DNA from: a virus
IMG/VR virus record: IMGVR_UViG_3300006927_002996
Location: 1-31,407 of that record
Strand: one strand, 5' to 3'
Length of the DNA: 31,407 bases
Shown here: positions 117 through 8,091 of the stretch, piece after piece
How the letters are laid out: every line of letters starts with the position of its first letter
Numbering within the stretch: the stretch's first letter is position 1
The notes under the pieces: model-generated
Databases searched by the model: none
Told to the model about the DNA's origin: nothing
What the model saw: the letters and a program-made list of their open reading frames with translations, nothing else
Made by a program: the position numbers and the translations under genes

Positions 117-564
117 GGGGGTGTAAAGGTATCGACAGGGTAAGGATAATAATACGTGCAAGGCTGTGTGAGTAGGCACAGTAAAACTACTCAAAACTAT
201 AAATGCCAACGATAACGTTGAAATAGACGATTTCGCGATTGCCGCTTAATCTTCCCGGGTTTCCGATGACCTGGTTACCAAATATCGGATTTACACATAC
301 ACACAAGGAGAAATATTATGAGTAATAAAGAATCAGGATACGGAATTAGAGCAGATTTGCTCACGCTTGCAAGGGACATTCTCTCTGAGAATTTTCATAG
401 CAGGCTTGAATCCGCTGATGATAAGTCGTCTGTGGATGGTTTCACCACGGAAGACGTAGTTCGAGAAGCCGAAAAGCTTTACACTTTTGTTGTAAATCGC
501 TAACCTTGTAAATCGCGTATTATTTGAGATGTTCTGGACGCGGGTTCAACTCCCGCCACCTCCA
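117..564 (+). ncRNA. ssrA: tmRNA (transfer-messenger RNA) containing an embedded protein gene
   Basis: tmRNA rescues stalled ribosomes: its tRNA-like part is charged with Ala and its mRNA part adds a degradation tag. The ends form a 7-bp acceptor stem (GGGGGTG 117-123 with CACCTCC 557-563, one G-U pair), discriminator A564, and a T-arm GCGGG/CCCGC (540-544/552-556) with loop TTCAACT. CCA is not encoded. Helix P2 pairs 148-156 with 516-524 (9 bp) and 159-163 with 504-508. Pseudoknot 1 is CTGTG 164-168/CACAG 177-181 plus GAGTAG 170-175/CTACTC 187-192. The tag frame starts at GCC 205 and reads ANDNVEIDDFAIAA, stop 247-249. Pseudoknot 2 is 255-260/269-274 plus 262-267/284-289. Where pseudoknots 3 and 4 normally lie there is instead a 61-codon gene (318-503). 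Total length of 448 nt exceeds the usual 350-400. The gene is not circularly permuted. Confidence 0.93.
318..503 (+). CDS. Small protein encoded inside the tmRNA
   Basis: This 61-residue protein starts at ATG 318, eight bases after a strong ribosome binding site (AAGGAG, 304-309). It lies wholly between tmRNA pseudoknot 2 and the 3' strand of tmRNA helix P2, and its stop codon (501-503) abuts that strand at 504. It is hydrophilic and charged, predicted mostly helical (DLLTLARDILSENF near residues 13-26; EDVVREAEKLYTFV near residues 45-58), with no signal peptide or membrane segment. I cannot assign a function; it looks like the small conserved helical proteins seen in marine T4-like phages, but that is memory, not a search. 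It is presumably translated from the tmRNA precursor made by the promoter at 77-105. Whether it regulates or depends on tmRNA processing is unknown. Confidence 0.75.
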   Translation: MSNKESGYGIRADLLTLARDILSENFHSRLESADDKSSVDGFTTEDVVREAEKLYTFVVNR

Positions 565-631: not shown

Positions 632-1186
632 ATGTCCAAAGTCAATTTGGTTTGCGCTGTATGTAGTAAGCGATTTCTAAGAGACAAGAAAGAATATAAT
701 AGAAGTCAAAAATTTGGAAGGCCATGTTATTGTTCGCGAACATGTTCTGGAAAAGCAAATCAAAAAAGCTTAGGAGAACATCTTGGAGTAGGCAAGCCAG
801 AGTTTTTAACGACAAGAAAGCCAGATGAATATACTCCTTTTAGGTATTTTTTGAGATCTATAAAGAGAAGAGAATATCTAAAAGGCAAAAGTGATATTGA
901 TTTAAAATATCTAAAATATCTTTGGGAGAAGCAGGGAGGAATATGTCCGTTTACTGGGTGGAAGCTTTTATTGCCGGAAGGATCTTCTGTGAGAAAAGAC
1001 AGATCTGTTTATCGTGCTTCGCTTGACCGTATTGACAACTCAAAGGGATACACAAGGGGAAACCTTCGCTATGTATCAATTATGGCCAACTATTGTAGAA
1101 ACGAGTTTTCAGATGAAGAGGTAAAATTGTTCTGTGAAGCAGTGACAAGTTCTAAAAAGGTCAACACTTGGAGCCAAGTGGAGTAA
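632..1186 (+). CDS. HNH homing-type endonuclease
   Basis: A 184-residue protein. Start at ATG 632 is favoured by AGGAGG at 621-626 with 5-nt spacing; an upstream GTG at 626 overlaps that site. The N-terminal 40 residues hold a zinc-binding cysteine set (CAVC near residues 8-11, then CYCSRTC), a DNA-binding knuckle. After a linker, the C-terminal half has the HNH fold pattern: GGICPFTG, then LDRIDNSKGYTRGN, then a late Asn in SIMANYCRN. Free-standing HNH endonucleases of this design are common mobile genes in marine phages and cut a specific DNA site so that the gene is copied into it. It lies 67 nt after the tmRNA 3' end, and a second copy of that 3' end lies at 1558, which suggests the tmRNA gene was the target. 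Confidence 0.85.
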   Translation: MSKVNLVCAVCSKRFLRDKKEYNRSQKFGRPCYCSRTCSGKANQKSLGEHLGVGKPEFLTTRKPDEYTPFRYFLRSIKRREYLKGKSDIDLKYLKYLWEKQGGICPFTGWKLLLPEGSSVRKDRSVYRASLDRIDNSKGYTRGNLRYVSIMANYCRNEFSDEEVKLFCEAVTSSKKVNTWSQVE

Positions 1187-1235: not shown

Positions 1236-1276
1236 TGTCTCATTTGAATCCTCGCCAAACAAAGAAGGAGAAGAAA

Positions 1277-1558
1277 GTGACTAACATGTTTGACCCATAC
1301 AAGTATCCAAACTGTATCGATCTAGACGTAAAGTGCGAACACGAGTTCCTGACAATTCGAGAAAACTATTCACGAACGGATTGGGTTCCAGAGGCGTATC
1401 ACGGACAGAAGGGAAAGGTGATCAAATCAGTATTTCCAAAGGCGTTCATTACGGGATCGGCATCATTCCTCTTAGAATTTGAGAACGAGGAGAGGATGTG
1501 GATATCAAGCCTATCAGTTCAGGAATACATGTTTCCGTGGGAGAAAAAAAGAAAATGA
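1277..1558 (+). CDS. Small protein of unknown function in the HNH cassette
   Basis: A 93-residue protein. I take GTG 1277 as the start because AAGGAG (1265-1270) lies 6 nt before it and the promoter at 1207-1235 would start transcripts near 1242. ATG 1286 is an alternative; starts further upstream would overlap the -10 box. The protein is polar, rich in Glu and aromatics, with the segment GQKGKVIKSVFP followed by SASFLLEFENEERMW, reminiscent of a small beta-barrel (KOW- or SH3-like) fold. No catalytic motif is visible. Its TGA stop at 1556-1558 runs into the repeated tmRNA 3' end, so it fills the distal half of the cassette. A gene with its own consensus promoter beside an HNH nuclease could be a host-takeover or anti-defence factor, but that is inference. 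Confidence 0.75.
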   Translation: MTNMFDPYKYPNCIDLDVKCEHEFLTIRENYSRTDWVPEAYHGQKGKVIKSVFPKAFITGSASFLLEFENEERMWISSLSVQEYMFPWEKKRK

Positions 1559-1576
1559 CTCCCGCCACCTCCACCA
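1558..1576 (+). repeat. Second copy of the tmRNA 3' end
   Basis: Bases 1558-1573 repeat the tmRNA 3' end at 549-564 exactly for 16 nt (actcccgccacctcca), covering the 3' half of the T-arm and the acceptor strand. Unlike the first copy it is followed by an encoded CCA (1574-1576). No 5' tRNA half accompanies it, so it is a remnant and not a working RNA gene. This is the pattern left when an element enters an RNA gene and supplies its own replacement 3' end. Confidence 0.7.
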
Positions 1577-1615
1577 ACTTTTCTTTTTTTTCTCTTGTTG
1601 AGACCTATTTAAAGT

Positions 1616-2977: not shown

Positions 2978-3643
2978 ATGAAACTCATAATGGAAAACTG
3001 GCGACATCACTTAAAAGAACAAGGCGATTCTTTTAAATGCCCTCACGGAATGTTCGTTTCTGTAATGCTGCCACCCACTAAGCGTGAAATTGTTATACTG
3101 CCAACTAATAACGAAGGTCCGACTGCTTTTTACAGAAGCACCGGATCCGGAACTGCAGGAAGAAATACAGAAGATATGTGGTTACCTATGGGTGGAGTTG
3201 GACAACATAATGGCGATCCTTGGATCATAAAACTACCTTCTAGTCACCCACAAGCGAAAGGCTCTAAATTCCCCAAAGAAGAATCAGAGTTTTGGAAAAT
3301 TGGAAAGGAACTGGCTCGCTGTTACGAAAGAAGCCCGTTCAAGTCCAAGGATTGGACAGGATATCTTACAAAATTTGAACTCCCTTCCTATGAACAGGTG
3401 GAGGAATACGCAGGTATTTTCCGAATTACTTATGGCGCAATGATTGTCAACCACTGGTTGAATAGTAAGGGTGCGCTAAAAACAGATTGGCAGTCTGGAG
3501 GGATATACGGGTCTGTTAACCATCCGGTATCTGGGGTGGAAAAAGGCTCTGGATATACCACTGACCTCGCAGGGTTAACTGTAAGAGATATTCACAGTAT
3601 GGTATGGAAAAATTCGCAAGAACAAGGCACACACAACATATGA
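2978..3643 (+). CDS. Leader-bearing protein of unknown function
   Basis: 221 residues beginning MKLIMENWRHHLKE, with predicted prohead cleavage before Gln15. Behind the leader is a Cys-Pro-His-Gly (about 20-23), a beta-rich region, and GRNTEDMWLPMGGVG. A helical half follows, containing the segment GKELARCYERSPF. The region YEQVEEYAGIFRITYGAMIVNHWLNS looks like a helical core. No signal peptide or transmembrane segment. I recognise no family; by context it is another packaged protein. It starts 7 nt after the GNAT gene and its stop overlaps the next start (ATGA, 3640-3643). Confidence 0.7.
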   Translation: MKLIMENWRHHLKEQGDSFKCPHGMFVSVMLPPTKREIVILPTNNEGPTAFYRSTGSGTAGRNTEDMWLPMGGVGQHNGDPWIIKLPSSHPQAKGSKFPKEESEFWKIGKELARCYERSPFKSKDWTGYLTKFELPSYEQVEEYAGIFRITYGAMIVNHWLNSKGALKTDWQSGGIYGSVNHPVSGVEKGSGYTTDLAGLTVRDIHSMVWKNSQEQGTHNI

Positions 3644-6739: not shown

Positions 6740-7354
6740 ATGATTCGTATTATAGGCAAAATACCTCCAAAAGTGACCGTTGCGTGTTCTGGAGGAGTCG
6801 ACTCAATGTCGGTAGTGCGCTTTCTTTTGAATGGGAAAAGAAAGGTGCGGCTTGCTTATTTTAATCACGATACCTCCCACTCAAAAGAATCAGAACACTT
6901 TGTTAGAAGCTTTGCAGCAAAAAATAAACTAATATTAACAGTTGGGAGAGTTAAAGGAATAAAGGAAAGGTCTTCTTCTTTAGAAGAATTCTGGAGAAAA
7001 GAAAGATATAATTTTCTAGACTCATTGAATGAGAGGAATGTTATAACATGCCATCATTTAGATGATGTTGTTGAGACATGGTTGTTTAGTTCTTTTCACG
7101 GTAATCCAAAAATGATACCATACAAAAGAGGGGACAGGATCTATAGACCATTCCTTATGACTGAAAAGAAGGAAATACTAAATTATGCGGAAAGACAAGA
7201 TGTTGAGTGGATCGAAGACCCGTCGAATCGTATGACAAAAAATATAATGAGAAACCACATTAGGCATAATGTCATGCCGGAAGTGTTAAAAGTAAATCCT
7301 GGCATAAGAAAGACAATTCGTAAAAAATTAATTGAAATTTATAAAGATTATTGA
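6740..7354 (+). CDS. tilS: tRNA(Ile)-lysidine synthase, minimal form
   Basis: TilS uses ATP to attach lysine to C34 of the CAU anticodon of tRNA-Ile2, changing it from reading AUG (Met) to AUA (Ile). This 204-residue protein has the PP-loop SGGVDS (17-22), the downstream NHD (42-44), HHLDD (105-109), YRPFL (135-139), EDPSN (159-163) and RNHIRHNVMP (171-180), all characteristic of TilS. It ends just after the catalytic N-terminal domain; bacterial TilS proteins are commonly 300-430 residues and add C-terminal domains, so this is a core-only version. It is followed after 16 nt by a CAU-anticodon tRNA with matching determinants, an enzyme-substrate pair. Of 17 Ile codons in this gene, 9 are AUA by my count. 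Other PP-loop families are unlikely given the motif set. Confidence 0.92.
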   Translation: MIRIIGKIPPKVTVACSGGVDSMSVVRFLLNGKRKVRLAYFNHDTSHSKESEHFVRSFAAKNKLILTVGRVKGIKERSSSLEEFWRKERYNFLDSLNERNVITCHHLDDVVETWLFSSFHGNPKMIPYKRGDRIYRPFLMTEKKEILNYAERQDVEWIEDPSNRMTKNIMRNHIRHNVMPEVLKVNPGIRKTIRKKLIEIYKDY

Positions 7355-7361
7355 GTATAAT
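7332..7361 (+). promoter_or_regulatory. Sigma70-type promoter of the tRNA gene
   Basis: TTGAAA at 7332-7337 and TATAAT at 7356-7361 have an 18-nt spacer. The predicted start (about 7368-7371) falls on the 5' end of the tRNA at 7371. The -35 lies inside the end of tilS, so the tRNA can be made independently as well as by readthrough. Confidence 0.6.
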
Positions 7362-7370
7362 GATAAATAC

Positions 7371-7444
7371 GGGCCTCTAGCTCAATAGGTTAGAGCATCC
7401 GGCTCATAACCGGCAGGTTCTCGGTTCAAGTCCGAGGTGGCCCA
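7371..7444 (+). tRNA. tRNA-Ile2 (CAU anticodon, TilS substrate)
   Basis: A full cloverleaf can be drawn: acceptor GGGCCTC/GTGGCCC with a T-T mismatch at 6-67, D-arm GCTC/GAGC with loop AATAGGTTA, anticodon loop CTCATAA, T-arm CTCGG/CCGAG with loop TTCAAGT, and discriminator A7444. CCA is not encoded. Position 27-43 is also unpaired (T-C). Anticodon CAT fits Met or Ile2. C4-G69 and C5-G68 are the pairs known to favour TilS in E. coli, whereas tRNA-Met carries U4-A69 and A5-U68, and tilS lies immediately upstream. I therefore call Ile2; elongator Met is the alternative. Confidence 0.88.
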
Positions 7445-7461
7445 CTAAAATAGGAGAAACG

Positions 7462-8091
7462 ATGAGAAGTTATCAATGGGGTCTAGAAGAAGAAAAGGGA
7501 GAAGTCATAAAGAAGGTTTCTTCGCCGAAGGAAAATAACGACAGCGATGACTTTAATGTTGTCGAATATTCAGGAAATAATATTTTCTTTTATTCTTCTG
7601 TCAATCGTCCGAAGATATTAAAGTTAAATAAGGCGATAACAAATTTGGGGAATAATTTAGCAACTCGTGCGTTTGTATATCAATCAGAAAAAGCAGATTC
7701 TATAAGGCTCCACATCAACAGTTATGGTGGTAGTGTTTTTGCTGGATTATCTGCCGTTGATTACATATTGACATCGAAAGTTCCTGTAGAAACGATCATT
7801 GAAGGGTGCGCAGCAAGTGCCGCAACTCTAATAAGTGTCGTAGGCAGTAAAAGATATATGCATCGTAACGCATGTATGCTAGTACATCAGTTGTCCGGAC
7901 ACTTATGGGGCAAGTTTCAGGATATGCAAGATGACATGCAGAATTCTGAAATGTTAATGAAAAAGATAAAAAATATTTATAGACAATACACTAAGATACC
8001 AGAAGAAAAGATGGATGAAATTTTAAAACATGATATATGGTGGGATTCAGAACAATGTTTAGAATACGGTCTTATAGACGAGATTATTTAG
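7462..8091 (+). CDS. ClpP-like serine protease
   Basis: 209 residues with the ClpP/crotonase-type fold: INSYGGSVFAGLSAVDYI (85-102), the nucleophile Ser119 in GCAASAATLI, His142 in MLVHQLSG, and Asp191 in HDIWW followed by LEYGLIDEII. The triad is complete, so it should be active. The N-terminal 35 residues are extra and hydrophilic. ClpP homologues are frequent in marine T4-like phages; proposed roles are head maturation or altered host proteolysis with ClpX. No capsid gene is nearby, which makes a head-maturation role less obvious here. Start ATG 7462 has a good site (aggag, 7452-7456). It begins 17 nt after the tRNA. Confidence 0.88.
   Translation: MRSYQWGLEEEKGEVIKKVSSPKENNDSDDFNVVEYSGNNIFFYSSVNRPKILKLNKAITNLGNNLATRAFVYQSEKADSIRLHINSYGGSVFAGLSAVDYILTSKVPVETIIEGCAASAATLISVVGSKRYMHRNACMLVHQLSGHLWGKFQDMQDDMQNSEMLMKKIKNIYRQYTKIPEEKMDEILKHDIWWDSEQCLEYGLIDEII

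Follow-up and report, generated by a model that had tools for sequence, protein, structure and literature searches.

The DNA analysed here (the window) is the full 31,407-nt stretch of the record IMGVR_UViG_3300006927_002996, positions 1-31,407. All the sequences with which we compared it are metagenomic contigs, and the phages belong to a marine family. The window carries a tmRNA gene and, between the second pseudoknot (PK2) and the 3' strand of the P2 helix, a complete small protein gene. The locus comprises the following features:

77-105, + strand: sigma-70-like promoter, TTGAAT-17-TATAAT with extended TG (10 of 12 matches; consensus match only)
117-564, + strand: tmRNA gene, 448 nt, from the first G to the discriminator A (RF00023 and orthologues)
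117-123, + strand: 5' strand of the acceptor stem (P1), pairing with 557-563 (sequence, pairing, covariation)
136-163, + strand: 5' strand of P2, pairing as 136-142/530-536, 148-157/515-524 and 158-163/504-509 (pairing and covariation)
164-193, + strand: PK1, helices 164-168/177-181 and 169-174/188-193 (pairing and covariation)
205-249, + strand: tag frame ANDNVEIDDFAIAA, then TAA (sequence; relatives have ANDDVEIFEDFALAA and similar tags)
255-289, + strand: PK2, helices 255-260/269-274 and 262-267/284-289 (read directly from the sequence)
290-317, + strand: CA-rich leader and Shine-Dalgarno motif AAGGAG (305-310) of the nested gene (sequence; leaders of free-standing homologues)
318-503, + strand: nested protein gene, 61 codons plus TAA, predicted two-helix protein (ORF, homologues)
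490-516, + strand: 11-nt direct repeat TTGTAAATCGC, at 490-500 (end of the ORF) and 506-516 (P2 3' strand)
504-536, + strand: 3' strand of P2, with loop TTGTAAATCGC (alignment of relatives)
540-564, + strand: T-arm 540-544/552-556 with loop TTCAACT, acceptor 3' strand 557-563 and discriminator A564 (sequence, pairing, covariation)

A cmscan search matched the tmRNA model RF00023 end to end over 117-565 (114.3 bits, E 3e-44, gathering score 47, model positions 1-374), and this single hit spans the insert, linking the 5' and 3' parts of the molecule as a preliminary description of this DNA had supposed. Its reading of the acceptor stem, P2, two pseudoknots and tag as intact held as well: all 46 tested pairs of P1, P2 (23 pairs), PK1 and the T-arm form in the window, and PK2 can be read in the sequence. 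In an alignment of 16 sequences (the window and 15 relatives), 99.3% of the cells pair, against 38-52% in controls with the partners slid by 1-3 columns, and nine pairs show two-sided changes. In the minimum free energy structure of the complete 448-nt RNA, P1, P2 and the T-arm are all closed around the insert (z -3.4). The acceptor stem carries G119-U561 (G3-U70) and A564 (A73), the alanine identity element; the T-arm is canonical, with five pairs and the uninterrupted loop TTCAACT, and the gene does not encode CCA. PK1 precedes a short, stop-terminated tag, ANDNVEIDDFAIAA, and PK2 is retained in relatives with other letters. Alanylation, SmpB binding and tagging are putative activities of this tmRNA. 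The candidate promoter ends 11 nt upstream of the tmRNA 5' end. ARAGORN did not report the window tmRNA, which may be a reason why such nested genes go unannotated. Bacterial genomes yielded no exact pattern match for a host tmRNA of the same type.

The nested ORF lies immediately against the tmRNA structure, its TAA (501-503) abutting the P2 strand 504-509, as had been described. The gene and its own ribosome binding site were also recognised correctly, except that the Shine-Dalgarno motif occupies 305-310, not 304-309. This ORF is not a chance reading frame, since it has dozens of homologues and since the Shine-Dalgarno-preceded ORFs in the tmRNAs surveyed come from only one family: among 72 distinct phage tmRNAs whose ends are intact, 8 carry such an ORF with a length of 40 codons or more, in every case a member of the nested-ORF family. 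The 72 tmRNAs were collected partly through searches for this very family, so that the count speaks for specificity and not for frequency. The window protein is 36-54% identical to free-standing members of the family, in which the CA-rich leader with its Shine-Dalgarno motif recurs and is similar ahead of the free-standing homologues. Among 80 family loci, 46 adjoin SSB and/or RecA/UvsX genes, nine are nested in tmRNA, 20 are elsewhere, and five lie downstream of a separate, ordinary tmRNA, at a distance between 67 and about 170 nt in L233, L258, L266 and L267 and of about 0.8 kb in L254. This last arrangement is a possible intermediate towards nesting. The usual neighbourhood of SSB and UvsX suggests a role of the nested protein in DNA replication or recombination. 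The family had no match in Pfam or PHROGs, and direct tblastn found it in no isolate phage; its distant member L294 has a 41% match to a hypothetical protein found in PA5oct/Paride-like Pseudomonas phages. The predicted fold consists of two helices (mean pLDDT 71) and had no match in the PDB.

The related genome G001 contains a single copy of the family, the nested one; its SSB-UvsX interval holds other genes and no family ORF. This interval appears to be a slot for variable cargo. In G001 it holds an unidentified gene and a DNA methyltransferase, in G015 an FKBP-like protein, in G008 a different large unidentified gene and in other phages a small ORF of the nested family, whereas in G007 it is empty. 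An intergenic hairpin element, CCGCAGGGAGGCACGGG...CAGGTGCCTC, recurs near SSB/UvsX (G001:10815-10850, L002-L009, L212, L213, L291 and L293) and is absent from the window.

What the insert replaced could be seen in insert-less relatives, gathered by scanning viral contigs for a T-arm together with lineage-specific 5' and 3' patterns. The 15 complete insert-less orthologues measure 286-308 nt, with ~60 nt at the insert site, and have the order PK1-tag-PK2, an AU-rich linker, in most of them a compact third pseudoknot (for example, UGGC/GCCA with GUCUAG/CUAGAC, the second helix of which covaries), and then GACTAACCTTGTGAAYGACG. The window retains everything through PK2 and everything from CTAACCTTGT onward, and the conserved TAA serves its nested ORF as stop codon. 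The gene had been placed where pseudoknots 3 and 4 would stand; it is indeed a replacement, of a segment that in most relatives comprises a linker and one knot. Four of the insert-less relatives, compared over their genomes, match 87 to 128 of the 184 G001 proteins. In the closest, G015 (128/184 proteins, median 60% identity), the syntenic locus carries the tmRNA that has no insert.

The same insert occurs in the tmRNA (96.7 bits) of L001, the 190 kb contig IMGVR_UViG_3300025122_000005, which represents the same phage species as the window (99.7% over 29 kb), and the fragment L007 carries the 3' junction. The window and L001 ORFs differ by one nonsynonymous and no synonymous change, a comparison of only two alleles and one difference. 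The T-loop of L001 is abnormal, reading AGTCGGAG instead of the TTCRACT type (L001:3223-3251, equivalent to G001:81391-81419), so that its T-arm is not canonical. Apart from additional changes, this stretch resembles the relatives' T-arm in reverse complement, and it looks like a hairpin inversion or an assembly error. The tmRNA of the L001 allele may accordingly be dead or misassembled, and tmRNA function may not be retained in every nested allele.

The nested form is not confined to the lineage of the window (clade A). We found it in nine contigs of a second lineage of family-level-distant phages (clade B: L243, L275, L278, L279, L280, L284, L285, L299 and L300, the last one cut within the ORF), a positive outcome of the check proposed earlier, whether homologues also sit inside tmRNA genes. 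The clade-B tmRNA differs from that of the window (its tag is ANDNVALTLAA), and its insert is a 63-69-codon member of the same protein family at the same position. The clade-B phage G020 has 42 proteins in common with G001, and in both phages the genes surrounding the tmRNA follow one order. The clade-B ORF is under purifying selection, with six synonymous and no nonsynonymous changes within one allele (L280 versus L275/L278) and dN/dS of 0.17-0.22 between L243 and the L278 group. Every complete clade-B allele keeps the tag, G3-U70, PK1, P2 and the T-arm; the T-stems differ (GCGGG/CCCGC versus TGCGG/CCGCA), and both pair. In L284, a sigma-70 promoter matching TTGACA-18-TATAAT at 12/12 positions lies inside the tmRNA, upstream of the ORF leader, and L285 is identical there; given this internal promoter, the ORF of at least these two contigs is probably expressed apart from the tmRNA, on a separate mRNA.

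Allele replacement is visible within clade B, where L299 and L278 have flanks that are 98.5-100% identical around ORFs with 61% nucleotide identity; a diverged ORF inside nearly identical flanks implies that the ORF is exchanged as a cassette. Exchange also reaches across the clades. The gene downstream of the tmRNA in the window (1270-1555) is 97.9% identical over 286 nt in the clade-B contig L296, showing that clades A and B exchange DNA at the tmRNA locus. The P2 loop of the window, TTGTAAATCGC, resembles that of clade B (TTGTATATCGC) and is unlike that of insert-less clade A (TTGTGAAYGAC), and its PK2 also resembles clade B. These similarities favour the view that a PK2-ORF-P2 cassette moved into a clade-A tmRNA, and we regard this as the likeliest origin of the window allele. 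An AU test did not reject a single origin of the nested ORFs (p 0.165, with a poorly resolved ORF tree), and one capture spread by recombination and two captures are both compatible with the data.

Other observations concern the surroundings of the tmRNA. Four alleles (window, L208, L210 and L205) have the D-loop variant GTAAAGGTATCGAC in common, and three of the four have an alternative T-arm. An HNH/endonuclease VII-like gene lies directly 3' of the tmRNA in the window (635-1186), L208 and, by its start, L210, and L205 has a remnant-like stretch of such a gene. With these shared variants beside the HNH gene, it looks as if a homing element had been rewriting the tmRNA ends. There are also partial tmRNA copies, one covering the first ~46 nt and preceding a tail-fibre-like gene (G001:79701-79749) and one of the tmRNA 3' end, downstream of the HNH region (window 1561-1577). 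Further along the window, consecutive and otherwise different ORFs (at 1616, 2002, 2342, 2978 and 3604) share the N-terminus MKLIMENWR, with the variant MKLIIENWR among them and an internal position in the ORF at 3604; L008 has a similar series starting with MKITKRQLR. By analogy, this shared N-terminus is reminiscent of a capsid-targeting sequence. At 6740-7445, a TilS-like gene is followed directly by a tRNA with a CAT anticodon, which may be a tRNA-Ile2 accompanied by the enzyme that modifies it; a ClpP-like protease gene comes next, at 7462.

A 2025 census of 97,179 unique tmRNA sequences recognised three gene forms, standard, group-I-intron and permuted, and the only protein genes reported inside tmRNA encode homing endonucleases and lie in group I introns of the T-loop (PMC11915505). 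The nested form is none of the three, and we found no precedent in the open-access literature for a protein gene in the tmRNA pseudoknot domain, in keeping with the initial impression that no such tmRNA had been described. With the standard one-piece tmRNA (RF00023), the window shares the acceptor stem with G3-U70, the D-domain, P2, PK1, the tag and its stop, PK2, the T-arm and the gene order; it differs in that the last pseudoknot segment is replaced by a Shine-Dalgarno motif and a protein gene, and its mature RNA would measure ~450 nt versus 286-308 nt in the insert-less orthologues. The intron form also has a protein gene inside the tmRNA gene, in some cases for a LAGLIDADG homing endonuclease, but there it lies in a self-splicing intron in the T-loop (PMC11915505), whereas in the window it lies in the pseudoknot domain. 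We also considered whether the insert might contain a group I intron or another RNA element and rejected the idea, as Rfam gave no hit of this kind over 60-640 at E<=1 and the T-loop is continuous. The permuted two-piece tmRNA (RF04321), also present in marine phages such as Melnitz (PMC9004378), shares a coding part that ends after PK2; we rejected this assignment too, since the window has the standard order with no acceptor piece at the 5' side, and the partial hits to RF04321 correspond to shared domains. Outside tmRNA, SgrS/SgrT is a dual-function bacterial RNA (PMC4021124). Like the window locus, it combines a functional RNA structure with the coding sequence of a small protein, whereas the window RNA is a tmRNA, already tRNA and mRNA in one, and its two frames would have different initiation modes.

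From the anatomy, recurrence, conservation and allele replacement observed, we consider it fairly probable that the locus is a functional phage tmRNA gene whose last-pseudoknot segment has given way to a complete small protein gene, giving two products from one locus. The promoter at 77-105 would most likely drive one primary transcript. Some molecules would fold across the insert, with P1, P2, PK1, PK2 and the T-arm closing, have their ends trimmed and act as tmRNA; on others, ribosomes would enter at the CA-rich leader, which is unstructured, and synthesise the 61-aa protein. We infer that one RNA serves both roles, and no molecule could play both at once, since a ribosome that terminates at 501-503 would sit on the 3' strand of P2. 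The abnormal T-loop of L001, the lack of an encoded CCA in the window and the internal promoter of L284/L285 speak against this reading. Such a design is tolerable, since E. coli tmRNA can do without its last three pseudoknots in vitro, in line with the preliminary description, which called them replaceable, and since the coding piece of natural two-piece tmRNAs typically ends after PK2 (PMC3985003). More tentatively, this would be a fourth form of tmRNA gene, and the single RNA would combine a tRNA-like part, a tag message and an independently initiated gene, with inner translation and trans-translation in competition, thereby coupling an allelically diversified protein to ribosome rescue. 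The insert and its flanks act as a cassette that related phages exchange at the tmRNA locus by recombination.

The same anatomy could also yield a two-piece tmRNA if RNases removed the insert after folding, or if its mRNA were translated and degraded, leaving a PK1-tag-PK2 coding piece and an acceptor piece joined by P2 and the acceptor stem, an option already raised in the preliminary description. The break would match the natural two-piece site, where the coding piece ends after PK2 (PMC3985003), and a P2 of 23 pairs is long enough to hold the pieces together; the gene order, however, is standard, whereas natural two-piece tmRNAs come from permuted genes, and we identified no processing signal, so that we find this route rather unlikely. 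It is unlikely, too, that the main role of the tmRNA locus is to anchor recombination, its conserved flanks allowing phages to exchange small cassettes while the nested alleles lose their rescue function. The diverged ORF alleles within near-identical flanks, the exchange of 3' ends and downstream genes seen with L296, the damaged T-loop of L001 and the partial tmRNA copies at G001:79701 and window 1561 are what it would predict, but the retention of the tag, G3-U70, PK1, P2 and the T-arm in every complete clade-B allele and the pairing of the swapped T-stems argue against it. Finally, as the contigs are metagenomic throughout, an assembly chimera might have fused a tmRNA with an unrelated gene. 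We deem this highly improbable, given that both junctions occur in the window and L001 and the 3' junction in L007 too, and that the clade-B junctions were found independently in contigs from several datasets.

A protein gene lodged in the pseudoknot domain, present in two clades and under selection in one of the two, would represent a new form of tmRNA. It would provide a natural experiment on how much of the tmRNA can be spared and a natural case of an mRNA gene inside a structural RNA, and the locus would exemplify how phages exchange variable cassettes at a conserved RNA gene.
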